64,000 nucleotides of DNA, taken from NCBI GenBank assembly GCA_963402885.1, contig OY727093.1:23745409-23809408 (forward strand), given 5' to 3'. Below, one piece after another: positions 9,108 to 57,664 of this stretch. The translations under genes were made by a program, and so were the position numbers. Source of the DNA: Antedon bifida. Its lineage: Eukaryota > Echinodermata > Crinoidea > Comatulida > Antedonidae. Below the pieces are notes generated by a model. The model saw nothing but the letters and a program-made list of their open reading frames with translations. It was not told where the DNA came from and ran no database searches. The first letter of the stretch is position 1. Every line of letters starts with the position of its first letter.

Positions 9108-9304
9108 CTAATTCTGTATTTTTGACCGGTCTGGTGGTTGTGGCTGCATCGGCGGTAGTGGCGGTGGCGCCTGTGCGATCTTGTTTTGGGGTGGTTTGAA
9201 AAAACCCGCTATGATACAACAGCAACCGACTACTAAAACCAACACTGTAGTAACGGTTAATGCAATCAGTAATATAACCATCGGTGAAATCTTCAAATCA
9301 CTAC
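9108..9304 (-). CDS. Gene 1 exon 6: transmembrane segment and cytoplasmic tail
   Basis: Acceptor TTACAG ends at 9305; the frame runs to TAG at 9108-9110. After a short linker it codes one long hydrophobic helix (MVILLIALTVTTVLVLVVG), then CCCIIAGFF, then a Pro-rich tail with PPPLPP. The Cys triplet at the inner membrane face could be palmitoylated, and the PPPLPP run could bind SH3 or WW domains; both are inference. Gene 2 and gene 3 carry the same G-C-x-C pattern at the same place. Confidence 0.72.
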
Positions 9305-12300
9305 CTGTAAGAAAAGAGACACAAGTTTAGAAATATGTCGATAATTATTATATGTTGATATAAATTTTGCAGTAGGCCTACACCATAATGTACGTACGTG
9401 GTGTACAGCAAACTTTATATCAACATACTGATTTCACCATGTAAATCTTCAATCGAAAATTACTATGTTTTAGGAAAAGGGTTAGGTATGTGCGTTAGTT
9501 CCGACTTTGACATTTTCTCTCATTCTTTTATTTTCACTCGTAATCTTGAACATTAGTCCAATTCTCTCAATTGGCTAACTGCGAATCGGGTATGGATATT
9601 GTCATTCATCCAGGTAGTATTATGTTTAAAAAAAATTAAATCTAGTCAACTGGACTTATTGTATAATAGCTGCTACACTATACAAGTCATTCCAGTTGAC
9701 GAGATTTAACCCGAGGTTGAGGTAATGTAAACTTATACTATCAGTGCTTTAGCATGTGTATAAACGTACTTGCTTTCTCTGATTGGGTTGACATTCGGTC
9801 GGTTACAGTGTGTGTGAAATTTAGCTCAACATATCCATTTGTTGATACATTTGTTTCCTCTTCAGCTTCTGATCCGGTAGGGCTATTCTCATTTCCATCA
9901 TTTACAGATCCAGTAGTTGCTCTATGTTTCGTTCCACTGCGTTTCGTTTCAGTAATGTCCGTTTCATTAATGTCTGTTTCAGTAATGTCCGTTTCAGTAA
10001 TGTCCGTTTCAGTAATGTCCGTTTCAGTAATGTCCGTTTCAGTATTTCCCGGCTCATAAGTTGCCGTTTCAGTTCTCCCTGACCAATTAATTTCTGTTCC
10101 ACTACTCAACTCACTGCTTCCTATTCCGTTATCCGGTTTAGTAGTCCATGTCTTACTATGTCTCAACGTACTGTTTCCAAAGGTTGCATTCAATGGTATC
10201 CCAGTAGTCGAATTATACTCCAATTCACCATTACCTGATCCGTACACGGTGATATTACCGTAATCCTCTGTCGATGCCATATACATTGTTTGTTCAAACT
10301 CAGTAAATGTTTCATTATTGTCACTTTTGTGAGTACTGTTATGTATAATATCGTACATTTCTGAAAAAAAAAATGAAAAAAACACAATTGTTATGAAGTT
10401 ATGAGTTATTATTTCATTGTTTCGTGCTTTCACCACACAAATATTGAGGGTCTTTCACACTTGTTCCGGCACGGCTACGCGCATATCGGTTGATCCGTAG
10501 CTGAGTAGAGCTTCGTGAAAACGAAACATTGGCGTTCGATTTGATTTGATGGCGCCGGACCGGAACTGGTGTCAAAGACCCTTTTATCACAGAAGACAAT
10601 GTTGTTTTTGTCAAATTTTCAATATTCAAACTCATAGTTAGTAACACTGACAGCTTTATTTTCATAATAATTGTCATCATCAAACTCATACTCGCAATGT
10701 GTATTGTCATTTTTGTCCACACACATGAACATGTTAAATGTTATCGTCATATTGTGTCGCATTAACTTTTAACTATGCTAACAGTATAAAGTCACAGTAG
10801 CGGATGATATTCTTACCTATCCGGCAGTTGGAAAACTCATCTATGTCTTGAAACCAGAGCTGTCTCATGATACGAGGAGGGTTTATTTTAAATGAATAAT
10901 TGCTGTCACGATCGATTTGTATTTTCGTATTTGAAATATGCATATTTACTCTTTCATTATATTCATTGCTGTTTGTTTGCTCTGTAATAGTTACATTATC
11001 TGATGTATATGTGATTATTATATCACCTGCTCCATCTGTTGACAAGCGTAAGCTAACCGGTGTCATTTTAACATAAAAACTCAGTTTCCTTGTTGCTGAT
11101 GGTATGGTAATAAAGTAGCCATCCTTTGTTGTAGTAGGCATCATTATACACGTATCTGCATGCAATAATGTATCATTAAAGATATATTGTCCCCCTAAAA
11201 AAATAATCTTTACATTTTTTTTTAATATGCCATTTTAATATTACATAATAGTGATTCACTTTGACATTTTCCCCCCAAAAAATGTAATTTAAAGCAAAAT
11301 ATACCTAAATTGTCTGGAAGACAATGGTTTTTGGTTGAAATTAACCATCTCTTTTGTTTTTTTATAAGTGAAATAATTATTTTTTATGATTTTTTTTTTC
11401 TACAGAAGTGAATAACTTTATTAAAACTGTGAAATTGCCTATTCAAAATCTGATTTTATTAATCTTTATTTGTCATGTTTTTGGGGAACAATACATCTTT
11501 AATATATTGTATTAAGTATCTATAATAACCGAGTTTGATGTTATAACACTAGTATTATTGTTTCCGTTATTTGTCCAAAAAGAGTATTACAGAAAATCAC
11601 AATCACATACATATTACTCTAAATGCAGACGCTAGAAGGTTTATCGTGCATCCCCAGAAATATTTTTAATTAGGCTTAATGTTAGTAGACCCACAGAATT
11701 GGGTAGAAAACGCTATGTTTAACACGCGAGTAAATTGTCCCATACTTTTTATGTAAATTAGCACATTATACACACCTAAACTTTTGGGCATATCTCGACC
11801 ATTATCTATTATACCAATGTATTGTCCAGACCCATGTTTTTATGGTCAAAATCTGCAAATTAGTGGAGACATTATAATAAAAATCAACGTTTCATTATAT
11901 CTTCCCCAATACTAAAATACTAAAATTTACATGGAATGCAAACAAATGTAAAAAGAAGATCATTTATAAATGAATTTATTAACAACAATGACACAATGTT
12001 AAATTGAAAATTGTATTCGACTAGACAAAAACAATTACAACAAATGGTGACAAATAATAATGAATTATATAATGCCCGCATAAATATTGGACCATATTTG
12101 ATCATTTCTTTAGTAAAATTTGATTTTAAAATTAAACATTAATTTCTTAAATAAGCAGAATGGGTGGTGATTGAAAAGCTTTATTGCAAACTTTTAACAA
12201 TGTGATACTCTCCTATCAGAGAGCAGTGAAAGATTTTGAAAGTAATTCACTATTGCTTTACATTTTCGGTCTAAGCTTTTCGTGTAGTAATTGCATGTGT

Positions 12301-15300
12301 CAATGACCAGTGTTATTCTTATGCAAATTACTGCAGCCATATACAAAAATAACTTCTTGTCATATCTCGACCCATACCAATGATAACTTTGCAAACTTAT
12401 GGAGGAATTATATTACGGTACAGTCATTTTAATTTATTTTTTTATTTATTTCGGTATGAAAAAATATAAAATACGTAGAGGTAGCAGAGCGAAAATGCTT
12501 GCATTACAAAATAAGACAAGACCGCTAACAATTAAATACAAAAATTACAACAAACAAAAGAACGTAATATATTGTACAAATTGTATGGTATGTATTGTTT
12601 CTGAAATTACCAGTATATTACATATAATGTTTAGTTTTAAACAACGAAATTAAGTTTAAAACTTACCTGCTTTGCCTGGTGCAGCAGTAAACAAATAATG
12701 TAAACAAAAAAGAATATGAATGAATAATTAAGAACAATGGCACAATGTTCAACTACAAAAATGTATTCGACTAGGACCAGAACAATTACAACACAAATGC
12801 AAATTAGCACATTATACACACCTAAACTTTTGGGCATATCTCGACCAATATCTATTATACCAATGTATTGTCCAGACCCATGTTTTTATGGTTAAAATCA
12901 TTTAAAGACTTTTTTTATGCAAATTAGTGGAGACATTATAATAAAAATCAAGGTTTCATTATATCTTCCCCAATACTAAAATACTAAAATTTACATGGAA
13001 TGCAAACAAATGTAAAAAGAAGATCATTTATAAATGAATTTATTAACAACAATGACACAATGTTAAATTGAAAATTGTATTCGACTAGACCAAAACAATT
13101 ACAACAAATGGTGACAAATAATAATGAATTATATAATGCCCGCATAAATTTCAAATATTGGACCATATTTGATCATTTCTTTAGTAAAATTTGATTTTAA
13201 AATTAAACATTAATTTCTTAAATAAGCAGAATGGGTGGTGATTGAAAAGCTTTATTGCAAACTTTTAACAATGTGATACTCTCCTATCAGAGAGCAGTGA
13301 AAGATTTTGAAAGTAATTCACTATTGCTTTACATTTTCGGTCTAAGCTTTTCGTGTAGTAATTACATGTGTCAGTGACCAGTGTTATTCTTATGCAAATT
13401 ACTGCAGCCATATACAAAAATAACTTCTTGTCATATCTCGACCCATACCAATGATAACTTTGCAAACTTATGGAGGAATTATATTACGGTACAGTCATTT
13501 TTTATTTATTTCGGTATAAAAAAATATAAAATACGTAGCGGTAGCTGAGCGAAAATGTAGCTAACAATTAAATACAAAAATCACAACAAACAAAAGAACT
13601 TAATATATTGCACAAATTGTATGGTATGCATTGTTTCTGAAATTACCTGTATATTACATATAATGTTTAGTTTTAAACAACGAAATTAAGTTTAAAACTT
13701 ACCTGCTTGGCCTGATGCTGCAGTAAACAAATAATGTAAACAAAAAAGAATATGAATGAATAATTAAGAACAATGGCACAATGTTCAACTACAAAAATGT
13801 ATTCGACTAGGACCAGAACAATTACAACAAACGATGACAAATGATAATTACATAATATAACGCCTGGATAAATTAGGCTAGGCAATCTATCTAAAAAAAC
13901 AGCCCAAAGAGTGAAACAAATTGAAAACAGAGATTTTTCTTTTTTTAATGGTAACACGATGAGGAGATCACCATTTGAGCATCACACCTCTGTCACTCAT
14001 CCCGTTGATATGCAAATTAGCTTAAATATGCAAATTAGGGTAACATTACAGTCGTCACATATCTCGAAAACCACTAATGCTGGAGAGTTGATTTTTTTCA
14101 CAACCGTATTCAGAATGTACATATTTCTACATTAGTACAAGTTACATGAAATATGCAAATTAGGGGGTGAAATTACAGATTCCTATATATCGAACACCGC
14201 TAAGACTAGGGAGTTGATTTTTTTTCACAGCCGTATTCAGAATATCAGCATGCGAGACTACAGAATTAGTAAGACTGTGATTAGTATAAGAGTACTACTG
14301 TATTGTATTAGCTGATCTATAGCCCAGTGATTTTTATTAATTAGTTACTTTTGTAACATTTGCAATGTCTGTGATGCGTGTAGTGTATATTTCTACCGTA
14401 ATAACGGAAGTCTCAGTTGGTATAGTGAAATGGAATGTTTACAATCCTAGTAGAATGTTAGGTCCACAGACTCCATGCATGCTTCAGAGTTATTGTTTTC
14501 CAGGCTACAGTGAGCTTCCTACCCTGGAAAGAATTTGTCAACACATGGACCCTGTTTGTTCGGGGCAATGGCCTAGGAAATTCGGTTGGGGCTTGTGGCG
14601 CAAATACTCAGTATCTACGGCCCTCTGAGGACTCTTGGGCAACCCTCTTAAAATAGTCCTGCGACCGCCCCTGTCGTTCTAACAGGGGTGGTGGTATTCT
14701 CACTGCAGTACATACTGTACTTCTCTTGCACTAAATGTAAGTAGCTAATTGGCACCATATACCATCCTCCGTCATCCACAGCTGCATACTGGGAGAAACT
14801 CCAAGTTGCATTTACCAACATCGAGCACAAGATTCATGACGTCACAAGTATCATCCTGCTTGGAGATCTTAACATCGACTGGTTGGTGAACACATCTGGA
14901 AAACGTCATTTAGTTGAAATGGAAACATATAGACTTTTTCAATTACTCCCAACGTTGGATGATCCAACAGAAGGAACTCTTATTGATCACTTTTACGTGA
15001 ATCCGTCTGACAGTCTTTCGTTAATAAAAACCGCAGACAATCCACTTGAATCTGACCACTTACAACATTTTTTTTTTTTTTATTTATTACGGTATATATA
15101 AAATTACAAAAACAATAGCACATAGCTAATAACGTTTGTATTACAATAACAAATATTGAAATGAAATCTATAAACTACAAAATTCAAATGCGAAAAGCTC
15201 AACCTGAACCAGCACATAAGGCAGTTTTTGTCACTAATCATATTAACTAGTTATTGCACCTTGCCCCATGGTGTATGGTGTATGGTGATTGACCATCAAT

Positions 15301-17307
15301 ACAGGTTTATATCCACTACCAACCTTATCTAATGTTTATTTTTCTGTGTCACAAATCATTAGCATGTTGCAGAAGCTTAAAACAAACAAGGCTGCAGGCC
15401 CAGACAACTTGTCTCCCAAGCTTCTCCAGCTCTGTGCCCCGACATTTTCCCCAGTTCTTTACGAGTTGTTTAAAATTTCAATTTCATCAGGTTGTGTGCC
15501 AGAGGGTTGGAAGAGGGCACATGTCACCCCTATCTTTAAGAAAGGAGTGACCGCTGATTTTAACAACTACCGCCCGGTAGCTTTAACAGCTGTTACGCAC
15601 TTCTAAACATGCTACTGACAATTGATTGTTTATCGAAAACCAACATGGGTTTTTACCTAATGAATCATGTGCCATGTTTAATTTTTTAATTAAAAGATAC
15701 GAAAAGGTTCAATTTAAAAGGTCTTCATTTAACTGGGTGGAGGTAACCAGTGGGGTACCTCAAGGCAGTGTACTCGGTCCCATTCTTTTTAACTTTTTTT
15801 GTTAACGATATTATTTGTTCACTTAAATGTAAAACTGCTATTTTTGCTGATGATACTCTTATTTATAATGCAATTAACTCTCCTCAGGATTCTCTAAACC
15901 TTCAAGCAGATCTGGACCGACTTGGTCTGTGGAGCCAATCAAATCGCATGCCTTTCAATGTTATGAAGACGAATGTCCTGCATGTTACACGTTCGCGTAA
16001 CAGACAGTTGTCTAAATACCTTTTGTCTGGCTCTCCTATAAGTCCGGTGACATCTTTTAAATACCTTGGTGTTACTTTTAAAATTGACGTGGGATGACCA
16101 TGTCCATGTCATTGTTTCCTAAACTAAACGTATGTTGGGCTTTGTTTGGAGTATGGCTGGACATGCTTCGACCAGTGCATTTTTGTCTTTGTACAAAAAT
16201 CTTGTTTTGCCTGGCCTGGAGTATGCGAAACCTGCCTGGTTTCCATGGACGAAGTATTTGTCAGATCGGTTTGAGGGGGTCTATAGGAGAGCAACTCGTC
16301 TTGCTCTCAAACAACATCGTGGACAGATGTGCTATGGGGAGAGTTTAAATTTGCTTTCAGTTTCATCTTTGTCTGTTAGAAGAGATAAATTTCTTATTGT
16401 ATTTTGTTTTAAGGTTCTGGTGGGGTTTCTGGACTGCTGCACAGTTCATGACTGTATTTTAATAAATACCCGTCACAATGATCGCCTGTGCTTCCGCCAT
16501 CAAGCGTCAAGGACACAGGCTTTTTTTCATTCGATAGCCAGCTTCCCAGGCCGTTGACAGATGCTGCAGTCCTAGAAAGCCCATCAGCCTTCATTAGAAA
16601 AGTTCACATTCATTTTGATTCGCTTTAACTGTATTTTGTCTTTGTCTTTTATGTGTAAACGGACTTTGGGGTTGGGTCAACCAGCTCAGCTACAATGATT
16701 AGGTTCACTTATGTTGACCCTGGTCTCCCCAATTTCAGTTTTTTTGTTATGTGTATATACTCAAATAGACCGAATAAATAATGAATGAATGAATGCAAAT
16801 TAGGGGGTGGAATTACAGATTCCTATATATCGAACACCGCTAAGGCTAGAGAGTATAGATTTGTTTTCATAAACTTCCTCAGAATGTACATATTTATATT
16901 TGCTCTAATGAAACATTTTACAAAAAAATGTGCAGGTGCATGACAAAGGCGTGATTTTGGGTATATTATAGAAAACCTGTATCCGAGTCATTTAAGGCCA
17001 AAACAAAGTATATACAGTATATATATATATTAATTCTAAACCGCCCGGTGATATACTGGAATTTAATTAATTAATTTGAAACGAGACTCGAACCCGAAAC
17101 CTTCTGCTTGATATGCAGCTGCCATAACCATTAGACCACTTCATGGTATTGTTCAAACTAGATTGGATAGCGACTTTTTAACATTCTCGGCGTGGTACGG
17201 CGGAACAGCACTAGTCCCTCAATGTACGCACGCGCACCAGAGATCAAATTGATACGCCCTCATCTTTCAGTATTTTATTCACGAAGCGGGATCTTCAGAG
17301 AGATACT

Positions 17308-17338
<31 letters not shown>

Positions 17339-19267
17339 ACATCAGGCATAGAACATTAATTTTAAACCCCCGGTGATATACTGAAATTTAATTAATTAAT
17401 TTGAAAAGGTCATTAAATACGATAAGGTTACCATTCTTGGTACTTGTTAGTTCATTGAGTAAATATTACAATCTAGACTTATTTATCTTCAGTTATCTGC
17501 AATGTTTACTAATTATAAAATTGTGGTGATGTCATTATCATAGGCATCATCCAACTTTTCAAACTCATATGAATGTGACAGTGTCAAATCTGTCACATTT
17601 TCTTTATCATATTGATACGATAAAAAAGTAATGTTCTTACCTATTCGACAATTGTACAACATCTCAATATCTAAATCTTGAAACCATACCAATCTCAAAA
17701 ATGTGTGAGAAGTTTGAAATTCATAATTCTCGATTCCACAGTCAATCATTATCATATCATTGGAAAAGTGTATGCTTACACGTTCTCCTTCAAATCCACG
17801 TTCTTCGTCAAATCTTATATTATCTGAAGTATATATGATTATAATATCCTTGTTATCTGATATCCCAGCTGAAAGGCGTAGGCTAAATGGTGTCGTCGTA
17901 AAAATATCAACACTCAGGTGTAGTAGCTTATGCCATGTGTAATAGGGTAACTCAATGTAACGTACTTCCTCATCAGTCTTCTTAATAGTACACATATGTT
18001 CTATTCAGAAAATAGATTGATAATTAATTGTATCCAAAGACTGAGTTTGGAGATAATAACATTATTAGTTTTATAAGGGAAGAGTGAAACTACACAGTTA
18101 AGTCGAAGAAATATGTCCTCAAAAACACAAAAGCCTATATGTTTGGTTTATAGTCATAGATTTAAATTCAATAAAGTAAGCAAGAAGAAAGTTTTTTTTT
18201 TCTGAGAAAGCTTTTGAGAACTTGTTTCAAAGATAAATTGAAAAACATATATTTTCTGAAATAGGAAGTATGAGATTGTTTTCAACCCGCCCTACCAATT
18301 TTGAATTACCAATTATGATTAAAGTTTCCCTCTATATTCCCGAAAAGAAGGCTATCTAAAAGAAGTCGTTCAATGTTAATTTAACCTTTGAGGTCTTTCA
18401 CTAATTATTACAAAAACAAAATATAACTTAAACCATATTATGCATACTGTTATATTACCGTGTAGTGAGCATCGTCATAAAAAAAGTAATAGGTCTTAAT
18501 AATAATAGGTAGTAGGTCTTACCAATTATACAATTATGCAACGCATCGCTGTTTATATCTTGAAACAAGAGCTTTCGTATTTTACGATGAGGGTTCAGTT
18601 CATATTTGAATTTATATTCGTCATCATCCCAAATCTGTATTTCTGAAGGCGACATTTGCAATGTCACTCTTTTGATTTCCGACTGTGTATATGTTTTCCA
18701 ATTTTCTTCCCCGAAGTAAATATTTAAACCATTGCTTGTATAATTAATTATAATGCTATCATTTGAGCCTTGATTTCTTTCCAATTTTACGGTAAATGGT
18801 TTAGTTTTGTTAACATCAACATTTAGGCGTATGTGCGGTATGTCATCGGGTAATTCAATAACGCTGCTTCCTTCGTTATTAGTAATAGTACACTCTATGT
18901 AGAAAATAAATAATCAATATTTTTAAGCAATCAATAACTGGATGTTTAAAAGGTCTATATTATAACATTAAAAACAAATGTTAACTTGTATATTGAGTAT
19001 TTAAAAATGAGTGAGAATTCCTTCACTGTTCTTTCCCAGCCATAGGCGTATTCTAAAGATGAAGACTATACAAAATAAATAAGTATCATCTGATAGACCT
19101 AATTATCTAAACTAAACATTTTGTTGCTTTGTTTTGTTAAATTATAGTTGATATGGTGATTTGTTAACAAATTTGAAAATGTGTACAGTATAAGGAAACG
19201 CTCTACCTTTGTAACTCATAGTCTCTTCAACAATACAGATTACAGTTAAAAGTTTTATTAACTTCAT
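9108..19267 (-). CDS. Gene 1: predicted type I membrane protein with signal peptide, three repeats of an unknown domain, stalk and TM; six exons
   Basis: Six minus-strand exons join in one frame: 19207-19267, 18523-18894, 17641-18000, 10817-11155, 9770-10360 and 9108-9304. All five introns are phase 1 with GT-AG ends, and the lengths sum to 1920 nt (640 codons with stop). Predicted layout: signal peptide 1-20, domain copies 21-144, 145-264 and 265-377, stalk 378-574, membrane segment and tail 575-639. It should sit in the plasma membrane with the repeats outside. The domain is not one I can name; a jelly-roll or Ig-like beta sandwich is only a guess. The intron between copies 2 and 3 is 6.5 kb and full of repeats. 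The exons on its two sides could therefore belong to two genes, but I see no stalk or TM exon after copy 2 and no signal-peptide exon before copy 3, which favours one gene. Confidence 0.68.
9637..9708. mobile_element. Short foldback element in gene 1 last intron
   Basis: TAAATCTAGTCAACTGGA at the left pairs with the right arm ending TCCAGTTGACGAGATTTA. The 72-bp structure lies in the intron between the stalk and TM exons. A second imperfect hairpin with TTGATATAAA ends lies at about 9354-9426 in the same intron. Confidence 0.55.
9770..10360 (-). CDS. Gene 1 exon 5: Ser/Thr/Asn-rich stalk with ETDIT repeat
   Basis: The exon is 591 nt, phase 1 at both ends. The acceptor is a T-run ending CAG (AG at 10361-10362) and the donor is GTACGT (9764-9769). 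It codes about 197 residues rich in Thr, Ser, Asn, Glu and Gly with many N-x-S/T sequons, as in mucin-like or heavily glycosylated stalks. Six or seven tandem TETDI units lie near 9955-10050, one with Asn in place of Thr. No Cys is present. The opposite strand is also open here because of the repeat, but that frame is a shadow. Confidence 0.68.
10448..10581. mobile_element. 134-bp MITE in gene 1 intron 4
   Basis: Left end GGGTCTTTCACAC and right end GTGTCAAAGACCC are imperfect inverted repeats that continue inward as TTCCGGC / GGACCGGAA. It is GC-richer than its surroundings. It lies between domain copy 3 and the stalk exon. The 102-codon frame over it is not coding. Confidence 0.65.
10817..11155 (-). 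CDS. Gene 1 exon 4: domain copy 3
   Basis: The exon is 339 nt (113 codons), phase 1 at both ends. Acceptor AG is at 11156-11157 and the donor reads GTAAGAATATC from 10816 downward. It opens with DTCIMMP and ends LWFQDIDEFSNCRIG. Landmarks are VSLRLSTDG, IIITYTSDN and RVNMHISN, close to copy 2. A MITE inverted terminal repeat begins about 20 nt upstream of the acceptor, so intron sequence here was recently replaced. The polypyrimidine tract is weak. Confidence 0.68.
11174..11506. mobile_element. TTAA-flanked MITE next to domain copy 3
   Basis: Left end TTAAAGATATATTGTCCCCC and right end GGGAACAATACATCTTTAA form inverted repeats with TTAA at both outer edges, the target pattern of piggyBac-type elements. 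The length is about 330 bp and there is no open frame. Confidence 0.65.
11750..12806. repeat. ~1.05-kb tandem duplication, copy 1
   Basis: The block starting near TAGCACATTATACACACC recurs 1046 bp later. It contains a degenerate minus-strand segment with a GTAAGT donor-like site (12665) and a hydrophobic frame. I see no usable start or partner exon. It fills part of the large gene 1 intron. Confidence 0.75.
12807..13850. repeat. ~1.05-kb tandem duplication, copy 2
   Basis: Near-identical to copy 1, with small indels. The repeated frames on the minus strand (12984-13166, 13265-13465, 13673-13957) mirror those of copy 1 (11920-12105, 12194-12394, 12637-12837). They are carried by duplication and do not show independent coding evidence. 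Confidence 0.75.
14030..14260. repeat. Two ~130-bp repeats with ATGCAAATTAGGG
   Basis: Each unit reads ATGCAAATTAGGG, then TATCGAACACCGCTAA or its variant, then TCAGAATGTACATAT. A third unit lies at about 16793-16920, on the other side of the LINE, so the LINE appears to have landed inside the array. Confidence 0.6.
14640..16792 (+). mobile_element. Decayed non-LTR retrotransposon (CR1/Jockey-like)
   Basis: An endonuclease piece at about 14640-15060 contains GDLNIDW and SDH motifs. Positions 15070-15260 are foreign, starting with a T-run. RT fingers are at 15340-15600 with KAAGPDNLSPKLL and FNNYRPVAL. The palm is at 15800-16100 with FADDTLIYNA and FKYLGV. C-terminal sequence is at 16132-16557. 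Frames shift several times and the central palm is deleted. The 3' end is a short TGAATGAATG tail near 16783. It is dead. It lies in the gene 1 intron on the opposite strand. Confidence 0.85.
17036..17147 (-). mobile_element. tRNA-derived SINE, with partial second copy at 17352-17405
   Basis: The minus strand carries a tRNA-like head with A-box TGGTCTAATGG (17128-17138) and B-box GGTTCGAGTCT (17084-17094). The body that follows is AATTAATTAAATTCC then TATATCACCGGGCGG. The body alone recurs at about 17355-17405. Between them are (AT)n runs. It could be mistaken for a tRNA gene, but the stems do not pair well. Confidence 0.65.
17306..17334. repeat. (TA)n microsatellite
   Basis: An uninterrupted TA run between the two SINE-derived pieces. 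A second TA run is at about 53039-53060. Confidence 0.85.
17641..18000 (-). CDS. Gene 1 exon 3: domain copy 2
   Basis: The exon is 360 nt (120 codons), phase 1 at both ends, acceptor AG at 18001-18002, donor GTAAGAAC at 17633-17640. It opens with EHMCTIKK and ends VWFQDLDIEMLYNCRIG. The middle carries FSLRLSAG, then IIIIYTSDN, then RVSIHFSND, each alignable by eye to copies 1 and 3. It lies 522 nt from copy 1. Reading through the donor meets a stop after a few dozen codons, which supports splicing here. Confidence 0.7.
18523..18894 (-). CDS. Gene 1 exon 2: domain copy 1
   Basis: The exon is 372 nt, phase 1 at both ends, with acceptor AG at 18895-18896 and donor GTAAGA at 18517-18522. It begins with Glu-Cys-Thr-Ile and ends with Asn-Cys-Ile-Ile-Gly split by the donor. 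Internal landmarks shared with copies 2 and 3 are a hydrophobic stretch ending TVKL, the run IIINYTSNG, and LLFQDIN before the last Cys. A start-codon-only reading would begin at a TTG at 18784, but the open frame clearly continues to the acceptor. The first and last Cys could form a disulphide that closes the domain. Confidence 0.7.
19207..19267 (-). CDS. Gene 1 exon 1: start codon and signal peptide
   Basis: ATG lies at 19265-19267. The exon codes a Lys-flanked hydrophobic stretch beginning MKLIKLLTVICIV and stops after one base of the next codon at a GTAGAG donor (19201-19206). This is the length and composition of a cleavable signal peptide. Phase 1 at its end matches every later exon of the gene and the signal-peptide exon of gene 2. 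No other start upstream is needed. Short length is the main reason for doubt. Confidence 0.62.
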
Positions 19268-22137: not shown

Positions 22138-22168
22138 TGTCATCATCATCATTATCATCATCATCAAC
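22138..22168. repeat. (CAT)n-like microsatellite
   Basis: An imperfect run of CAT/CATCAT triplets. The DNA from 22180 to 22460 is AT-rich with nothing I can name. Confidence 0.7.
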
Positions 22169-28912: not shown

Positions 28913-29046
28913 TTATTCAGGATTGACTTTATTAGGTTTAGATAGTAATCCAGCTACGGCACAGATACATCCGATGACGAAGGCAAGGACCAGTGCGCCC
29001 GTAGAAACCATCAGAATCATAACTGACGTCGTGAATGGACTGTCAT
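28913..29046 (-). CDS. Gene 2 exon 4: transmembrane helix and tail
   Basis: Acceptor TTTTTAATAG ends at 29047; TAA stop lies at 28913-28915. It codes a helix (TSVMILMVSTGALVLAFVIG), then CICAVAGLL and a short basic tail SKPNKVNPE. The G-C-I-C-x-V-A-G pattern is shared with genes 1 and 3. The exon was too short to stand out by length; it was found by the shared phase and motif. Confidence 0.72.
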
Positions 29047-32000
29047 CTATTAAAAAGTAAATTGTTACATTATATAAACAATTAATGCATTTAATTAAAC
29101 GAAATTAGCCAAGGCCTACATTTGATTCACATTGATTAAAACAGTAACATTTGAATTTCAATAATATTATATTAAATATTATATTCATATGGATTTACAG
29201 GCCCGTAGCCAGAATGCATCAGAGGGGGGTTTTCTTGACACCAATTATTTTACGAAGCTTTGGCTCTCAGAGCAATTTCGGTTGTTTTAATCACCTTACA
29301 GAGACATTTTTTACCTACTAAAATCTGAGTTATGCAGAGAAATTATATAGTACGTCACTACAGTATTCTATAATTGATAATTAATTGCACGATTTTAGAA
29401 GTGGGGCCTTTGTTCGTCAAGGGGAGGTTAGCTGGTAAAAGGGGGGTTCGCGCAAAAAGTGGAGGGGGTGGGGGGTGGTTCGCCCGACACGCGAAAGTAA
29501 AATGACGAACACAAAAAGAGGCGAATCATTTCTCATTAAGAGGTTTGGTGAGGAAAGGAATCGCAGGTTTGGCATATTGTTCAGTTCGCGCGCGTGGAGC
29601 TAATATACTGTTCGTAGATAAGCGATGCAGGAACAAGAATTATTCATTAGTTATATTCGGCTACCTTATTGAATATATGCATTAGGTGAGACGTAAGTCT
29701 GTGTAGCCGAATTGTTTAGACAATGGGCTTTGTATGTCAATGTATGGTTTTATACTTTATAGTGTACTGAGAGATTATTTAGAAACTTAAGTAATATGTT
29801 AAGTAATATGGAAGTAGTAGGCTTTCTTTCAATTCTTTCGATTTTCTAATATCCATACCATGGATACAAGAATTAATAGGGAACCATTTTTTAATGTATT
29901 TGAACTGACCCATCGCGTCGCGATTTACAATAATCTGATTCTCCTCGTATCAAGAATCTGGAGATTATTACTTTTAAAGTGCATCCAAATTACGTAACAT
30001 AAATGCTTTTAGGTAAAAAGCAAATACAGAAGAACATTTCAAGAAATGTAGAAGCGAGTTTTTAGCCTATGCTTAACACGTACTCCCTGCAATACGTTTG
30101 TTACTTCCAAGAGCATCGCTTGTCCATCTTTCGATGTCAGTTTATCGAGGAAAAAATTCAGGATAAACGTATAGAGCAGAGTTAGTTCTGCAAACTTTTT
30201 ATCTCGCGGCCCAAAATCATCTTCCCGTGGCCTACTCATAAGAGACCCCTGTGGCCGTAATCATACTTAAGTGAGATATTTCCGTTAAATCCTAAGAATT
30301 TCCCTTTTATCAAGAAAAAAATTAAGGGTTTCACAAAGTGTTTAGAGTTAAGTGAAACCCTTAACTTGGCCTATTTTCTCCTTAACCTTTAAGGGTGCTC
30401 AGAGGTCCCTTAAAAGTTTCCTTAACTATTCAGACCTTGGTTGTGCTGATTCTGTATGTGCGAGTGCTATGCCTACATGTAGATAGCCCCAGTCTAGGAT
30501 AGATAGAAATTCTAGGCCCCCCTGTCGGTCTGCTTAGTAACCAGCTTAGGATTTCTATTTTTGGTTTGTTAGTAGCATCTGACCTATTTTTCTTGATCCT
30601 CACCAAACAAATTAATCTAGGCCTATATATTCATTTATTTGTTTTTGTTTTGACTGCCATTATTTTCGTGGAAGATGCCTGCTTATTTATTTGTAATAGA
30701 AATACAGTCTAGTACTAGTAGGCTCTATGTAGAGATGCTAAGGCCCATGTTGGTCTGCCCAATAACCAGCCTAGGATTCATATGCCTCAATACAAACAGT
30801 TAAGTTAGTAGCATCTATACCTATTTTCTTGATCCTCATCATACAATTAGTCTAAGCATATTCATTTATTTGTGTTTGTTTTGTTTATTTTCTTTTTATT
30901 GATCATCACACACTTTCTTCATCCTCCCCCTTACCCCCTCACTCTTTTTTTTAAATATGCAAATTAGTTTTTAGAGAGGAAAGTGATTGAACCATATAGA
31001 AATTAAATCTTCTGTGTTTGGACAACTCATGAATATTTATGATTATTTTTATTTTTTTTTGTTTTAACCTTAATTTAAGTGTTTTCCTTAGGAAGTGAAT
31101 TCCTTAACCCATTTGTGAATGCCACTTAAGTGTTTCCATTTGTTAAGGGAATTCTTAAATGTTAAGGGTAAGTTAGTCTAAGTGAGATTGGTGAATACAG
31201 CCACAGGTCCCCGGAAATTACATTGTAATTTTGTTTTTAGAAGGTAAAAATTGCGCTGATGATCTGGACAAAATCAGCGCAGCCCTGGGGTTTTCCCTTT
31301 TATAATTGTACATTACATTGCGGCGATCTAAACTTTAGCCACACAATTATACAAGAGCTAGATCCCTGGAAATTGCATTTTATTTATTTTTTTGTCGGAA
31401 CGTCGGTATAGAGTATGTATAATTTCCCCCATGTAATCATTAAAACTATTTCAGCAAATTGACGCATTCGTAATTTGACCACAAATCAAATATATGATTG
31501 AGGACGTGTAGCAACATTTATAAGTAATGTATAATGTATTTGTTATGTTGTTTTGATTTATTAAAATAAATGCGAGGATGGACAGGTTACCTTCACTATT
31601 TACTGAGTCAGATGTTGTGTCCGCAATACCAGTGTACACATCACTCGCATCACTCCTGCTTTGTCCTAGTACATTACTTTCCGTCTGATAGTCATCATGT
31701 CTTGTTGTAAGTTCAGCCATCTTAGTACTGCTATCGTGAACTGCAGTGCTTGCAGTGGTACCATTAGTCAAGTAATCAGCACCAGTCACCTCGTTACCAG
31801 TAATATGATTACCAACGTCATCTGTGCTGTTGCCACTATCTCCACCTCCACCCTGACGTGTCCACGCACGTGGGTCTGGCTTAGTGAGTGTACCATCACA
31901 ATCATTCCACCAACAATTTTCACACTTGTCGTTCGTGCAGTTACAGCCATGAGATGTGTTTGGCTGCATAGTAGGCATATCGATTGAGCAGTTGCAGTAC

Positions 32001-33471
32001 CAAGTGCAATTCGGAGTTTCAAGATTTTCGGTCGACGATTGTAGGCCTACCATTGTTTCGGTACCGTTGTTACTGACATTACCGGTACTGCTTTCAGTTC
32101 CGTCAATTTTGTTACCGTTATTGCCGCGACCATTGTTTCCGTTACCATTATTACCGTTGTTATTGCCGTTACCAACGCCATTGTTACTTTCTGTGTAACT
32201 GTCATACATTGTGACTTCATCGCTAGTATAAACATCATATTCTGGAAAACCAAGAAAAATTTACGTTTAACTATGATTGATTGAGTAAATGGCCGCGATT
32301 TTTATTGGCGTATGATCGATCAAAATAATGTTTACAGCAAATGATGTATCGCACGTCACAAAATTAGTCCCCAAAGGACCGTGAATTACTTAACTAAACT
32401 TCACCACATACTAATATTATACCCATAAGCACATGTACCACAATAATGGACATAAAAACGCGTTAATAAATTACTATTCGTGCATGGAAAGTGACATTTC
32501 TTGCTACTAATCAACCTGCAAATCAATTTGATCGTTTAAAAAGAACTGATGGGGTACGATTATTTAAAGTTTCACGAATAAGGACAGGCGTCTTAGTCTA
32601 GGTTGTAGCGGTGATTGTATTTATAAAAACAGATAAACATTTTGGCACACATGGCGTGTTATACGTATAAATCATTAACAACATAAAAGAAGACAATAAC
32701 TAGAGACTTGGGGCAAGTTTAACATTTTCGTTTTCTTACCTATTGTACACTGAAGTATGTCGTTAACATCATATATGAAGTACCTGCTCATGAAATTGGG
32801 AACGATGTCATACGATAAGATTGTTAAATTGCTGTCTGTAATATCCAGTGACGTGTTGCTAATTGCAAACGTCAACGTCAACGGCGTAACTATGTTTAAG
32901 GACATTGACGCTGTGTTAGTATTGCCATGTGAAAAAGTTACATCTTCTCCAACCGTTATGTTAATACTATCATTCATATGTGTTGAGAAGTTTTCATTAG
33001 CTGTAAAATAACACCTCGATGGCAAATTCATAAAAGTAAGTGTTATCTTTGTGAAGTTGATCAATGAGACGAAACTGAGGTTTTTTCTTTCTACTCCTTC
33101 ACAATCTGTACAACAATTTTAAAAAGAGGAAAAAAAATCGATCAGTTTTCGGACTATTATTACGTCAGTCTGTCATCATTCAGTTACTCAGTGACTGTGG
33201 TTAGTCAGTTGGTCCATCAGTTGGTATTTATTTTAAGCTGTATACTATTATAGGTAATTCAAGAACTTTTCACCTATAAATTGGTCAGTTGGTTAGTTAG
33301 TTTTGATTGGCCAATCAAACAGTCTAGTTGAGAGGAGGACGATCGTTAATTTTATTATTTTTATTTATTTTATTTTATTTTTTACTTACCCATGTCATAT
33401 TGTAACGGCGCTGATCGACAAAAACTAACAAGTGTAACCGGTATCATGTATAGTGCAATCTTCATTTTCAT
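28913..33471 (-). CDS. Gene 2: paralogue with one domain, Cys-rich stalk and TM; four exons
   Basis: Four exons join in frame: 33390-33471, 32740-33105, 31591-32241 and 28913-29046. All introns are phase 1 with GT-AG ends, and the total is 1233 nt (410 residues plus stop). Layout: signal peptide, one ~122-residue domain (28-149), a 217-residue stalk (150-366), and a membrane helix with short tail. The order matches gene 1 with two fewer domain copies. The last intron (29047-31590) holds a TIR transposon. A possible polyadenylation signal (AATAAA on the minus strand) lies at 28791-28796. Function is unknown. Confidence 0.7.
29199..29480. mobile_element. Dispersed repeat starting CAGGCCCGTAGCCAGA with G-rich runs
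   Basis: In gene 2 last intron. The left end reads CAGGCCCGTAGCCAGAATGC followed by GAGGGGGG; the right half holds GGGGCC, GGGGGGTTCGCGC and GGAGGGGGTGGGGGG. It resembles a dispersed element type seen in many marine invertebrate genomes, from general knowledge. The matching right terminus is not clear. Confidence 0.45.
30039..30239 (-). pseudogene. Short basic frame beside the TIR element, unknown
   Basis: A 66-codon minus-strand frame begins MSRPREDDFGPRDKKFAEL and ends just before the TIR element start. It is Lys/Arg-rich and could be the DNA-binding start of a transposon protein. No second exon or motif is visible. Low support. Confidence 0.25.
30247..31206. mobile_element. ~950-bp TIR DNA transposon, non-autonomous
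   Basis: Left end CCTGTGGCCGTAATCATACT and right end, read inverted, CCTGTGGCTGTATTCACC are similar; both continue with CTTAAGTGAGA / CTCACTTAG-like words. The arms hold many AACCCTTAA and TTAAGGG words. Inside, 30540-30660 and 30770-30890 are a diverged tandem duplicate (TAGTAGCATCT...TTCTTGATCCTCA). There is no transposase frame. Confidence 0.55.
31207..31590. other. Remaining part of gene 2 last intron
   Basis: Contains two short GGTCCCCGGAAATT / ATCCCTGGAAATTG segments related to the repeats at 51170-51440. Nothing else is identifiable. Confidence 0.4.
31591..32241 (-). CDS. Gene 2 exon 3: stalk with Asn/Gly repeats and a Cys cluster
   Basis: The exon is 651 nt, phase 1 at both ends (AG at 32242-32243; donor GTAACC at 31585-31590). 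It opens with EYDVYTSDEVTMYDSY. Next comes a low-complexity NG/GN run from trinucleotide-like DNA (about 32090-32190). A Cys cluster follows at roughly 31905-32010, with motifs CTWYCNC and GCNCTNDKCENCWWNDC: eight Cys in about 40 residues. The rest is Ser/Thr/Asp-rich with sequons. The cluster could be a small disulphide knot or a metal site. Gene 1 has no counterpart. Confidence 0.68.
32740..33105 (-). CDS. Gene 2 exon 2: divergent domain copy
   Basis: The exon is 366 nt (122 codons), phase 1 at both ends, acceptor AG at 33106-33107 and donor GTAAGAAAA ending at 32731. It starts with Asp-Cys and ends YFIYDVNDILQCTIG, matching the first Cys and the C-x-I-G end of gene 1 copies. The FQD core has become IYD. 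It has an extra Cys in SRCYF and many N-x-S/T sites. The middle is much diverged from gene 1, so homology rests mainly on exon shape, ends and hydrophobic pattern. Confidence 0.62.
33390..33471 (-). CDS. Gene 2 exon 1: signal peptide
   Basis: ATG at 33469-33471 opens MKMKIALYMIPVTLVSFC, a clear signal-peptide shape, followed by RSAPLQYDM and a GTAAGT donor (33384-33389). It ends in phase 1. A cleavage site near Cys-Arg-Ser-Ala is likely. A second ATG two codons in could also serve as the start. Confidence 0.72.
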
Positions 33472-50780: not shown

Positions 50781-51159
50781 AAGTTCAAAATATGCCTATA
50801 TTTATCGGGTAAATTGTAGCATAGAAAATATACGCGAACGTAAAACGTACCCACAGGCCATGCCAAGAGGTATATTGTTTATCGCAGAGGTTTACCTCGG
50901 CATTGTAGTGCCAGTCTGTTTGTCACAAGGAACGTGCCATCTTTTTATGAATACTACAGGAAAACATGCTATGGTTTCATGTGTAGAATGAAACAGTGTA
51001 GTAACAAATTGGTCAATACTGTTGTCCAGTCATGTTAAAAGGCTCAGAGCTATAGTTTACATATATGATGATACTGAGAGTATGATGTTTTTAATACTGT
51101 CTGTATCTTTATATGTTTTTTTATGCTATAAAATATTTTTGTATTCTTTTCTACACAGA

Positions 51160-51450
51160 TATAGAGCTGCTAGGTCCCCGGAAATTGCAATTATACAGAA
51201 CCAGACAACCGTGGTTGGGATGAAGGTAAGACAATTTAGAAAAATAGAGTTGGAGGTCCCGGAAATTGGACTTTTCATACTTCAAAACATGAAACAAAAT
51301 ATATAAGTCCCTATCATGGTTGTGACTGAGCTAAGACATTTTTGAACTGTTAGGTCCCGGAAAATGCACTTATTGTACTTCGAAATATGAAATGTATAGT
51401 ACCTATGACCAGCTAGGCTCCCCGACAAGTCCCCGTAGCCTTGTGTGTGT
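51160..51450. repeat. Three diverged ~90-bp repeats with GGTCCCCGGAAATTGCA
   Basis: Starts near 51173, 51256 and 51351. Single relatives are at 31206 and 31366. No coding content. Confidence 0.6.
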
Positions 51451-54239
51451 GTAACCAGTTGCTATCCGATCGCCCACTATAATATGTAATACAAATGATT
51501 ACAAAAAAATGTTATTTTATAACTTATTGTGTAAGATAAAAAGTGTGATGATTTTGTATTGTATAAATCTTATTTTTTCCGATGTGATTGAAAACAAAAT
51601 TGTAATATTCAAAATGGTCCCTTCATGCGCGAGAGGGCGTTATTTGAATAATCGAGAAAATGAACACGTTACAATTTTGGCAGTGATTCTGTCATTCCCG
51701 GATGCATGCTTCCTGGATACTAGGCCTAGATCAGATACAAACAAATTCAGGCACGACATGGATGTGTTTTTAGTTCGGTAGTGTAAAATGGGTATTATAG
51801 ATAGTTTGATGAGTTTGAACAAGGGCGAAAAAATTGGAATTCCTATGTACATTATAGGACGGCTGTTGAGCCGTGAAATGTGCAAAAAGTCACATTTGTG
51901 CCAACAACCACATGTGCAAACAACCACATTTGTGCAAGCATGGCACCTTAAATGTGCAAATCTATAAAATATATATAATCCACTAATGTGCAAACATCAC
52001 GCCATTAAATGTAAAAACCAGGAAAGAGTGACATTTCACTCTTCCCTGGTTTTGACGTTAAATGTCCAAATGAAATTCTACAATTGTGTAAATCATTTTT
52101 TTTCAACCAAAACCGATTATTAAAAATGATACATAGGCCTATTTCTAAAATAGTCACGGGTTTTTCTAACAATGTTTTTAAGATATAGCTACTTACATAT
52201 TTAATTGTAATCTGCTTTGAAAAAGAAAACCACAATCATGTCCGGGGATGCAGGACTACCACACGTGGTCCCTGCTTGCTGGAGATGGTAACTTTCATAC
52301 CGTTGAAATTGAAGTCCCTTATAGTTGTCCTCTTATTTTAAAGGAAATTCACAAAACACAATGAACTGAGTTCATTAGATGTTATATTATTTTATTTAAA
52401 ATGTGTTTCTGTTATGCGCGATTTGAACAATTTATGCAATTTAAAACGAAACTATAATCCTCAGGGGATTGATTAAGCATACAAATCGTCCAAGTTATCC
52501 CCCTTCCAGACCTTCGATCATAACCCCACTAAAAAGATACCGATAGGAAGATAAGCCGGACGAGATATTTTTGTCCGTACATAAGTTGGGAACCCCTTAT
52601 GTGAAAGATAGCCGAACTACTTCCTAAACCTAAATCTAACCCTCTACATAATCTCTCTCACTATAAAGTAAAAAGAAGTTGCACATTGTATTCGGTATAC
52701 ATCGATATGTAAAGTCAATAGTTTATTCCACTTGACTACACAGACGGCTCTACCAAATGTGTTTGCATTAGCGAATTGTAGTTAGCTCAATTCTTACCTT
52801 ACCTTATGGATATGAATAATGAATATTCATGTTTATTTTGTGACGTTTGATGAGGGGTACCCAACTTATGTACGGAAAGTCTTAAGTCGCAAAAAAAAAA
52901 TCGCAAGCCGGACAAGTTAGACCGGCTGGCGAGTTTGTAAAATGTCTGAAACTGGTAGGCTTTTTTGCGATTGTCGGAAACAGATTGGGTAAAGACCAAA
53001 TAATTATATTCATTATTTATCGTTATTCATTAAAAAAAAATATATATATATATATATAATATTATGATAATAATTGTGATACTTTCTCTGGTTTGAAAGT
53101 TTTCATTGGTGTAAAATTGGCTGCTACATCTTCCTTCTTCTAAAAGCTAAATATCTCCGAAGTTGAGGTTGAGACTCTGCGCCGCTTCTGTGATGCCAGT
53201 GTAAAAGTAAGTGTATCTAAATACGGGGAAACGATGAACAGATCTCTGAAGTTTAATAAACGTTGGCGGCGCAGCTTGTGTCAAAACGGCTTCCAATCCA
53301 TACTCTTTATTGTTATGTAGTTGTATGTTGGCATCAAATTCCAAGTATATTGCTTTTTAACTGGTATAGTTTTTATCTAAATAAAAGACGCGAACGTGCA
53401 ATTTACAAAAACTATCAATGTTAATTAATTTTAAACATGTTACCGTGTATTATTAGTATTATTTTTCTTATAATAGCAAGCTGTATCTTGTAGAAACGAA
53501 ACAATAGGCCTACTCCCAATCAAAAGATGATCGATTTTTAAGTGTAATGTGTTGCTTAGATGTTTCGATAGCGATTATTACTTTATTTTTACGAGAACCG
53601 TTGTGTAGATTACTGCACGTTATAAAATAATAACTAGTATCAGCCAAACATGGTAGTTATAAACAAGGATACATAATATACGTTTCATTTATTGAATATA
53701 ATATATTAAGCAGATTGATGTTTCGATCTTTTTAGTCATATCAGTGCAGCTCAGGTTTCGAACTATTATAAACCATATATTAATATTTTAAACTTAACAT
53801 TTTAAATATTTTACTTTAAAAATAATAACTTATTTATTATTTTATTTAAAGTTATTATTTTAAATCAGACAAAAAGTGTTCCCCCTTGTTTACACTTATG
53901 GTGCGCAATGTATGGATGAACGACCACTCTCTCTTCGATGGCCAACGATGGCTGTTACCTGATTGTGTTGGGAAAATAGCCGAGAATTATTTAGAGGACA
54001 AATATTCAACATGCAAAACAAATTTAACAAAATGCAAAAATATCAATTACACTTTATTTGAAACCAGATAAAATTGTTCGAGCAAATTTAACAATAGTAA
54101 ATCCACCTAGCGAATGAAACGTATGATAAGGTAGTCAAATAAATTAGTAGCATTTTTATTGAACTTATTAGAACAATACATTCCAAAATCTACATCTATA
54201 TTATACACTTCCAATACTAAAATAACAAATACCGTACTC
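51451..54239. other. Repeat-poor AT-rich DNA with one strong hairpin
   Basis: No supported gene. Frames at 51509-51781, 51640-51993, 52799-52999 and 53886-54071 have no recognisable domain. The last codes MVRNVWMNDHSLFDGQRWLL and could be an exon, but I find no splice partner. The hairpin at 52014-52053 is listed separately. Confidence 0.4.
52014..52053. repeat. Near-perfect 18-bp-arm hairpin
   Basis: AAAACCAGGAAAGAGTGA pairs with TCACTCTTCCCTGGTTTT with one mismatch and a 4-nt loop. Related half-sites, AAACCAGGGAAGAGTTCCTG and AAACCAGGGAGTCCCTGG, are at 45047 and 37872. Likely a terminal piece of a dispersed foldback element. Confidence 0.6.
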
Positions 54240-54665
54240 TTCTAATTCTAACCCTGGGTTATTATTCTTTGATTGTTTTAGAGTGGGTTACTATTAGAAG
54301 GTGGGTTACTATTAAGTAGTAGTACGTTACTATTTGTAATCTTAAATTAGGTACCTGAAAATAGTAACCCACCTCCAATTTTTACCGGTCAGCAACTCAT
54401 AGCAAAATAATAAAACAGTATGAATAAACAAATTTGGTTGAACTCTAACTTTATTTTATAAACTCAAAAACACTCCTCTCCTCTCCTTACACACTCCCGA
54501 GATCAACATGCATTATCTCCTCATGCATTATCTCCTCTAATAGTAACCCCCATGGGTTACTATTAAAGTAGTGGGTTATTATTATAGATTGACTTATAAT
54601 GTGGGTTACTATTAGAAGGGGGTTACTATTAGAGTGTGGGTTACTATTAGAAGATTTACGGTAAA
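54240..54665. repeat. Clustered GGGTTACTATTAG motifs in both orientations
   Basis: GGGTTACTATTA-type words occur near 54293, 54302, 54555, 54603, 54619 and 54639, and their inverse AATAGTAACCC near 54363 and 54540. The pair at 54540-54566 makes a hairpin around CCCCCATGGG. This looks like a simple satellite or the ends of a foldback element. Confidence 0.65.
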
Positions 54666-55381
54666 ATGTAACTGTTAAGTTCTCAATAAAACAGAGTAAT
54701 ACGACTGTGATTGTGCCTTCAAATATTACATTCGAAATCGATTAGATTAACATACATAGTCCTAACATACAAAATTACACACAAAAAGAATTATAACTCT
54801 CAATGTAATTATAACAATTTGCTGCAGAATAAATAATGTTTCTTAAACGTACAAATAACTCATTTCTTTTGAGCGCAACTTATATACGGAAGCCGAACAT
54901 CTTTTTCTTTTGTGAGATTCACTCACCTTTATTTCCATTTCAGTATAATATTATAATCATTTTAAAGAAAAAAATCGAAATTGCTATTTTTGTTTATTTT
55001 TTTTTATTTTGTTTGTGTATAAATTTCTTTATAAATAATAATTTCCAATTGTTTTAAAGATCTATATTTTACAATGAGATCATGTATAAAATAAATAATA
55101 AATATGTATTATCAATAATAAATATATAATAAAATCCAATATTAAAACATTAAAAAAGACAAAGTATACAAACTCAATTGCTTTCATTATTATTCACGTT
55201 TGTGACATAATCATTTACGGTATAATCTCTCTTTTTTATAGTTGTCTCAGCTTTTTATGTTTTTTTTTCTTTTTGTTCACATTTGTTGCTATGTTGCATC
55301 TTAAACACCAAGCTACTCTCACTTTTAAGCCTTCAAGTTTTCTGTATGTTTTTACACTAGAGAATTAACAATTCGGTTTTC

Positions 55382-55470
55382 AGTCGCGTGCAAACGCGAC
55401 TCTTCTAATATCTCACTATGTTGGTCGGTCGGTCGGTAAACACTAACTCAAATTTGCGCATGCGACTGCA
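55382..55470. repeat. AGTCGCGTGCAAACGCGACT hairpin with TCGGTCGGTCGG run
   Basis: Another copy of the repeat family seen at 24094 and in the 3.2-kb array; the following words AAACACTAACTCAAA match 2925-2945. The DNA from 54666 to 55381 is AT-rich and shows nothing else. Confidence 0.6.
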
Positions 55471-56742
55471 TGTATATGGCCTTGTTTTTCTATTGTACCG
55501 TAATAAAAATATTATCTGAAACTACACATCGATATATCCACAGTGGACTTAATGTATAAGATTATGATTGTGCAAGATAGTATTGTCTCCTGAAAACATT
55601 TTTTTTTCATACATTGGGTTTTGGTTACATTTAACCGTTTATTTTATCTTTTAATATGTACATTTTTTTTTTAACTGCAAAATTGCCTATTAATTTTAGT
55701 TTTTTTTATTATTCCTCATTTTTCATGATTTTCGGCGACAATGCATCTAAGCATAACAATTTACTTACTAATTTACTGTAACCCATCATCTCAGATTATT
55801 TAAATAATCATAATTCAATATTTTAAAACTACAGGATTATAAACAAATTAAAATACATAAATCCCAAAATTAATTGTTAAAAGTTGGAATTTAAGATTGT
55901 TTAGGAATGTGGATAATGCGTGAGACGTATGTACTCTCCACTCGCAGTGATCTACATCAAAACAGTCCACTCAGAAGAGAGAGAGAGAAGTAGGAAAGGT
56001 TCGCCAAAATCGCCGGATAATCATGATTATCTTGAATGAAGTGACAGTTGGTTTTTTGACACGACTGACAAGTGTTAACAGTAGTACCAGAGCATTCAAT
56101 TTGGCAAAATAAAGATTTCGAGACAAAATAAGAAATTGGAGACAGACATCGGACAGACCATGGAGGAAATAACGTGGACAGACGATGATATTTTCGGTGG
56201 TAACGTAGTTCATTATACCACGATTATATTATTTAAACACGGCAAAATACATTATTTAGATAATAAATGGTTACATATACACGTCGACTTATATTGACCA
56301 TAACACAATTAATAAATACCGTAATGATGTCTCGAACACATCGGAATTCTATGAATACAATTTGGCCAGTTTTATTATTTATGGGGTCATGTAAATTAAT
56401 AAATTTACCAAATTGTATGAACAGTATAACCACATGGTCCACAATGACTAAAGAAAAATGATGAAAAAAATTGTCTGATAACGCACACTTTAGCCAATCT
56501 AGCTTTCTACTTTCGAACTATGATTTATATACAGTTATTACAAATGTATTTAGTTTTATTTATTTTTGTTCAAATATACACAAAATAAATTTGCCACCCA
56601 ATTTGAATTTCTTTTTTTAAAAACATAACTATAAACATTTGCACATAGATCAAATCAGAAAGAAAAACAAGTCATTCTTTATTCAGTCCTAGTCTATCGG
56701 GCACCCGATTCTCGGTACTGCTGTCAGTGGACCACGTTGTTG
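55471..56742. other. Intergenic DNA downstream of gene 3
   Basis: A diverged MITE of the TATTGTC type lies at about 55577-55750. The rest is AT-rich without a supported gene. Confidence 0.4.
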
Positions 56743-56921
56743 TCACATTGTTGTTTCACATTCCGTTGGTGCCTCAATTGCTGGTGCAGGCGAAACTCTA
56801 CGAAATTTTCTAGGCATTTCTATCATACTTTCAACGACGCAAATACAGCCGATTAAAAGTGTAATAACCGCAATCGAAGTTGTAATCGTTAGTAGAATAA
56901 AGTTGCTATTCCAAACAAGAC
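56743..56921 (-). CDS. Gene 3 last exon: transmembrane helix and tail
   Basis: Acceptor TATTGTGTAG ends at 56922 and TGA is at 56743-56745. The frame codes a helix (FILLTITTSIAVITLLIG) followed by CICVVESMIEM and a basic, Pro/Ala tail. The G-C-I-C-V-V match to gene 2 (G-C-I-C-A-V) at the same phase is the main evidence for homology. Confidence 0.62.
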
Positions 56922-57664
56922 CTACACAATAAATAATTTACTAGTGTTGCTTCACATTTACATAATGAACATGTGTGTCACTGAAGCCGAAACATATTAG
57001 TTTTTTTGTTGTTAATAATTCGTAATTATTTATACGTTTTCATCAACTCAAAGAATAATGCCATATAAAACGTTACCTTTAACGTGATCATCAATCGTGA
57101 CAATTCCTGTCAACACAGGATCGGAGTGGTGGATGTTGAATTTAGCATTAAACGAAATAAAACAATTGCATTAATATATATGTAATATATACATCTATTT
57201 ATTTAATATATTTTTATATTGCGTATTTATTTTTCTCAACATATTTCATTAGTAGGCTACATCGGCTAACTTACGACGAAGGCACTAAACGGAAAATATT
57301 ATACCGTTCTTGTACTGTCTTACTGACTCTTCAGTTTGTGAAAATAAATTTGATTGTAAGAAATGTGTCGTTTTGAGATACTGCGGTAATTACAGACAGA
57401 ACGTGTGTGTATCCGTATTTTGTATTAAACATGCTTTTTTTAACATAATAGGAAATACGAGGTATTTATTTGACACTCAGAATTATAGAGATATGAATTG
57501 TGGCGACTTTAAAACGGGGAAATCATAAAAATGTACTATATGCAATTTTATGTCGAGTGTGAGTGAGAGAGCAGTCGCTCTAGATACATATTCATGATAG
57601 TGTCTAAATTTGATTTAATTGAAAAGTACACACTTACTTTGAACAGTGGAGTGGATAGTTGTTT
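56743..57664 (-). CDS. Gene 3 (partial, 3' end): two microexons and a transmembrane exon
   Basis: Three minus-strand exons join in frame: 57638-57664 (27 nt), 57077-57106 (30 nt) and 56743-56921 (179 nt with TGA stop). All junctions are phase 1 with GTAAGT and GTAACG donors and AG acceptors. The microexons code ETTIHSTVQ and RIVTIDDHVK, short stalk pieces. The last exon codes a membrane helix and a tail. Upstream exons were not found: from 57760 the sequence is a gypsy element, so the signal peptide and domain exons lie beyond the window or are lost. It is the third member of the cluster by its TM exon. Confidence 0.55.

Follow-up and report, generated by a model that had tools for sequence, protein, structure and literature searches.

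A same-strand cluster of putative single-pass surface protein genes with a Pfam-unrecognised module in the crinoid Antedon bifida

A 64,000-nt stretch of the Antedon bifida genome (the window; C1:23745409-23809408 in an assembly of 315.6 Mb in 27 contigs) contains, together with its flanks, five related genes within 98 kb, all on the minus strand. Their design, as read from the sequence, consists of a signal peptide (seen in four genes out of five), either one or three extracellular modules, a stalk, a single transmembrane (TM) segment with a Cys pair, and varied short tails. The gene models are predictions from the genomic sequence, based on open reading frames (ORFs), splice sites and phase. 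Positions outside 1-64000 are window numbering extended into the flanks, and local homology searches spanned 264 kb around the window, with 5826 ORFs for profile searches. A first-pass annotation of the window had described three surface-protein genes on one strand; the cluster is confirmed as real and the shared strand stands, whereas the count becomes five when the flanks are included. As same-strand neighbours with a signal peptide, an ectodomain and a homologous TM exon, these genes qualify, by their sequence, as a tandemly duplicated family of single-pass surface proteins.

Five genes and their exon design

All junctions in the models of genes 1-4 are GT-AG and in phase 1, including the five that had been proposed for gene 1 (19207/18894, 18523/18000, 17641/11155, 10817/10360 and 9770/9304). 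The six exons of gene 1 join into an uninterrupted 639-aa frame, and the four exons of gene 2 into 410 aa (boundaries at 33390, 31591 and 29046). Gene 3 encodes 372 aa (exons 68456-68390, 67957-67559, 66984-66568, 57664-57638, 57106-57077 and 56921-56743) and gene 4 encodes 343 aa (exons 78789-78720, 78206-77811, 77001-76615 and 74832-74654). The segment 57664-56743, previously taken for a whole gene, is only the 3′ end of gene 3, which starts at 68456, beyond the window. A Gypsy-type long terminal repeat (LTR) element splits gene 3 between its stalk exons, with the upstream exons (68456-66568) lying outside the window, which is why only the 3′ end was noticed at first. Gene 0, on the other side of the window, has its domain at -16336 to -16716, a stalk exon that starts at -17943 (3′ end uncertain) and a TM exon at -19012 to -19199; its signal exon is a mere candidate at -10020.

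The modules are 112-132 residues long and each is encoded by one exon; D0 denotes that of gene 0, D1, D2 and D3 those of gene 1, and E1, E3 and E4 those of genes 2, 3 and 4, respectively. The lengths of 113-124 codons reported initially for the domain exons, each followed by a GTAAGA donor, agree with the 124, 120 and 113 codons of gene 1 and the 122 of gene 2. A Cys at the domain start and an NCxIG-like end had also been described, and we find a Cys among residues 1-3 and Cys-x-Ile immediately 5′ of the donor. Across all seven modules, the first Cys occupies position 1-3, and six have a terminal Cys in the form Cys-x-I/L, which is missing in the gene 3 domain. In this domain (67957-67559, locus L009), a Tyr replaces the terminal Cys, and there is a Cys at domain position 97 that is absent from gene 4.

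The stalks of genes 1-4 are composed of 24-41% Ser+Thr and carry 15, 15, 4 and 3 N-glycosylation sequons, respectively, with mucin-like Thr/Pro repeats in gene 3. In all five genes G-C-[CI]-C closes the TM segment, and the G-C-x-C-x-V/I motif noticed earlier recurs in all three TM exons inside the window as well as in the two outside, one of which has L as its last residue. In three tblastn searches with TM exons, the other four TM exons ranked first (E 5e-22 to 0.011) and the next match stood at E 0.16 or higher, on a lenient scale with composition correction off. This ranking, together with the tblastn matches between domains, supports the view that these are locally duplicated surface proteins built from modular phase-1 exons. 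The tails are proline-rich in genes 0 and 1 (with PxxP in gene 1) and end in E-T-x-M in genes 3 and 4, while that of gene 2 has neither feature; Tyr is absent from the gene 0 tail.

Table 1. Positions of gene and element features inside the window
Feature	Position	Strand	Remark
Gene 1 signal-peptide exon (MKLIKLLTVICIVEETMSYK)	19207..19267	-	ORF, donor in phase 1
Gene 1 domain exon D1, 124 codons	18523..18894	-	GT-AG, phase 1
Gene 1 domain exon D2, 120 codons	17641..18000	-	GT-AG, phase 1
Gene 1 domain exon D3, 113 codons, structure modelled	10817..11155	-	GT-AG, phase 1
Gene 1 stalk exon, ~31% Ser+Thr, ETDI repeats, N-glycosylation sequons	9770..10360	-	
Gene 1 TM exon, GCCCII motif, proline-rich tail	9108..9304	-	60% identity to gene 0 TM exon
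Gene 2 signal-peptide exon	33390..33471	-	
Gene 2 domain exon E1, 122 codons	32740..33105	-	Best non-self match of E3+E4 profile (E 0.018, 5826 ORFs)
Gene 2 stalk exon, Asn/Gly rich, eight-Cys patch	31591..32241	-	
Gene 2 TM exon, GCICAV motif, short tail	28913..29046	-	
Gene 3 short stalk exon, 27 nt	57638..57664	-	GT-AG, phase kept
Gene 3 short stalk exon, 30 nt	57077..57106	-	GT-AG, phase kept
Gene 3 TM exon, GCICVV motif, tail end E-T-T-M	56743..56921	-	62% identity to gene 4 TM exon
Gypsy-type LTR element in gene 3 intron (locus L009), part inside window	57760..64000	-	Full extent 57760-66498

Two types of extracellular module

The D domains (three of gene 1 and that of gene 0) clearly form one family at the sequence level. 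They share 38-45% identity over six pairs (D1 is 40% identical to D2, 38% to D3 and 44% to D0), their four-row alignment has 20 invariant positions, and the gene 1 domains recover one another by tblastn (7e-9 to 1e-12). Genes 2-4 carry a second domain type, in which E3 and E4 are 46% identical and E1 matches these two at 22-24%. Identity between D and E domains is 18-33% over 12 pairs, and the sequence of E1 shows at most a weak relationship, if any, to the gene 1 domains. The domain of gene 3 was not reported below E 1 by single-domain tblastn in the 264 kb and had to be found with a profile, so that further divergent members in the flanking DNA may have escaped the search. A six-domain profile retrieved it at E 4.7e-5 (the next of the ORFs at E 0.92), but this mixed profile already contained its close relative E4. 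The first match after self was E1 for an E3+E4 profile (E 0.018), and E4 for both an E1-alone profile (E 0.09) and a D+E1 profile (E 0.61).

The first-pass annotation had assumed one repeated domain across the genes, which is clear for the D family of genes 0 and 1 and only plausible beyond it. E domains are absent among the nine matches listed for a D-only profile, and hhalign of D against E returned a probability of 1.1. These blind profile tests and hhalign point to two domain types on a homologous TM cassette. They would be expected if two unrelated extracellular domains, one in genes 0 and 1 and the other in genes 2, 3 and 4, had been placed on one TM cassette by exon shuffling, a serious possibility that we nevertheless hold to be short of probable. 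The D profile also fails to separate E1 (4.6 bits, a score that 77 of 1991 scored shuffles attain) and E3 (0.1 bits, 857 of 1970) from shuffles. However, E4 scores 5.3 bits against the same profile, a value attained by just 7 of 1877 scored shuffles, and both types have the one-exon design, Cys near both ends and, in six of seven, a final Cys-x-I/L. A common origin of the D and E types is plausible, on the basis of the shared exon design and the homologous TM exon.

Predicted fold and possible roles

As had been proposed, the domain is not recognised above cut-off by profile and sequence searches. Pfam searches of the seven domains, of a consensus-like peptide and of gene 1 as a whole gave only matches that miss the cut-offs, the best being DUF7076 (E 0.02, whole gene 1). 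PDB sequences queried with D1 and both profiles returned nothing below E 0.2. In a library of 5.8 billion proteins, gene 1 residues 21-385 gave 1400 candidates, none at E <=10, and the D alignment gave 176, none at E <=1; this library may contain few animal proteins, so absence from it says little about related animals. The module is, by sequence, undescribed in the libraries searched. A family of this kind did not appear among the papers listed by literature searches made without a species name, which leaves room for an existing description.

An AlphaFold2 model of D3 (pLDDT 73.7) is an all-beta domain whose nearest folds are galectins, LNS domains and GH32 sandwiches, each match being non-significant alone. 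From this, the gene 1 module is predicted to be a beta-sandwich of the ConA/galectin/LNS type, and the outer domain may fold like sugar-binding lectins; the E-type model was too poor for a fold search, and the comparison covers the D type. A legume-type lectin profile, below cut-off on the gene 3 domain (E 0.084), leans towards a ConA-like fold. Weighing on the other side are two Ig-like profiles, also below cut-off, Unc5_NetrinR_N (E 0.051 on D3) and Ig-like_Pom152_1 (E 0.1 on D1), which lean away from it.

Several known families were compared with these modules. LNS domains (neurexin/agrin laminin G) occur on adhesion proteins and may share the sandwich fold with the model (Foldseek E from 8.2e-3), but the single chains matched have ~170-200 residues against 112-132 here, and the LNS/laminin G Pfam profile is not among the matches of the seven domains, the consensus-like peptide or whole gene 1. 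Hydractinia Alr, like other clustered recognition genes of invertebrates, likewise consists of tandem single-pass surface genes with modules that are hard to recognise by sequence. The Alr modules are Ig-like, whereas the modules here lack D-x-G-x-Y-x-C before the F-strand Cys (0/7 domains); with this motif absent and the Ig-type profiles far below cut-off, membership of the Ig superfamily was not adopted. Nor was galectin membership: the sugar-binding motifs H-x-N-P-R and W-G-x-E-x-R occur in 0/7 domains, and the galectin profile (PF00337) is not among the matches of the same nine queries. One source describes gnathostome galectin carbohydrate-recognition domains as spread over three exons, and a classical signal as atypical for deuterostome galectins (PMC10343441); the genes here differ in encoding the module in one exon and in having a signal peptide and a TM segment. 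The modules may resemble the Methyltransf_FA domain (FAMeT, PF12248) in strand pattern; that domain is reported to be characteristic of CPAMD8, a thioester protein (PMC9363628). FAMeT membership was considered and not adopted; hmmscan did not list PF12248 up to E 10, a range in which HMMER filters drop most weak matches.

We lean, by a little more than even chances, towards lineage-specific, tandemly duplicated type I single-pass surface glycoproteins that act in adhesion or recognition through a lectin-like module. Their most likely job is at the cell surface, in adhesion or in recognition; that they recognise microbes or self is a guess. The Cys residues at both module ends would pair and close the module, and the stalk would raise the modules off the membrane, where they could engage a ligand, whether glycan or protein, on another cell, matrix or microbe. 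The TM cysteines may be acylated, the proline-rich tail of genes 0 and 1 might dock SH3-type adaptors, and the C-terminal T-x-M of genes 3 and 4 might serve PDZ-type ones. Modules would be gained by duplication of phase 1-1 exons with the frame intact, as the three copies in gene 1 versus one in the others suggest.

As in other clustered invertebrate surface families, the genes might instead encode immune or self/non-self receptors diversified by duplication and selection, which we regard as unlikely. Local duplication and the differing module number would fit, as would the closest TM exon pairs being 60% and 62% identical against 38-46% for domain pairs of the same genes. However, by Nei-Gojobori counts, dN/dS is 0.26-0.77 in seven domain pairs (two of which have dS of 1.62 and 2.28, near saturation) and 0.43 and 0.68 in two TM pairs, so that 9/9 pairs are below 1, with no clear excess of domains over TM exons and nothing at this level pointing to positive selection. 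Both dN and dS are lower in TM exons than in domains of the same genes; faster domain change is therefore not attributable to selection and may simply stem from the age of the TM exons or from their conversion. The locus with its flanks yielded only five genes, and the tails of genes 1-4 lack immunoreceptor tyrosine-based inhibitory and activation motifs (ITIM/ITAM). It is similarly improbable, in our view, that the products are ordinary adhesion or structural glycoproteins of cuticle, epithelium or gamete surface, evolving fast and without a recognition role: the Thr/Pro repeats of gene 3, the ETDI repeats of gene 1 and the short tails point that way, but the folded modules and the invariant positions of the D alignment do not. 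We see little prospect that D and E modules are two branches of an undescribed, echinoderm-restricted lectin-fold family in polymorphic self/non-self or microbe recognition, expanded by phase 1-1 duplication. A decaying family with some pseudogene copies, as the lost terminal Cys and 8.7-kb intronic element of gene 3 and the unsure signal exon of gene 0 might hint, is very unlikely given the open frames (343-639 aa) and GT-AG junctions of genes 1-4 and dN/dS below 1.

Crinoids are sister to all other living echinoderms, and to our knowledge little is known of their recognition molecules. A compact receptor cluster with a Pfam-unrecognised module would make a tractable candidate for how crinoids tell cells or microbes apart, and could test how lectin-like sandwiches come to be recruited into modular receptors. 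The receptor architecture itself is familiar, which makes the find less surprising.

Mobile elements and neighbouring features

The Gypsy-type element in the gene 3 intron (~8.7 kb) is, by its sequence, a young, recent insertion: its LTRs are 99.15% identical over 588 columns, GTAG flanks it on both sides, and it contains an uninterrupted 1456-aa frame with Pfam matches to reverse transcriptase (RT), RNase H and integrase. The 6.5-kb intron of gene 1 contains, antisense to the gene, a non-LTR retrotransposon remnant (14745-16557, plus strand) with endonuclease/RT-like pieces by eye; its frames 15289-15606 and 16123-16557 have no Pfam match at 0.01. A plus-strand frame at 45491-46282 matches ALKBH8_N (PF09004, E 8.8e-10) and is probably, by eye, the end of a retrotransposon polyprotein.

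Single-exon frames of 529 and 550 aa, Ig-like by eye, occur to the left of the cluster at -98077 (L028) and -78528 (L026), at distances of ~79 and 59 kb, and the right flank (~97400-107980) contains mucin-like Thr/Ser/Glu/Pro repeat frames of up to 3350 aa. Elsewhere in the assembly, dense Ig-domain exon arrays at C13 19.9-20.7 Mb, C1 12.06-12.33 Mb and C8 11.10-11.12 Mb have 25, 27 and 17 PF00047 matches, counted among the 150 scored of 1034 candidates (these 150 lie on 11 contigs, and crinoids have n = 11), and could represent an Ig receptor repertoire. The mitochondrial contig C27 (15,844 bp, with long frames under the echinoderm code) reads COX2-ATP6-COX3-ND3-ND4-(trnR, nad4L)-ND5-ND6 reversed-CYTB over 10 kb, with all names except trnR assigned from peptides by eye.
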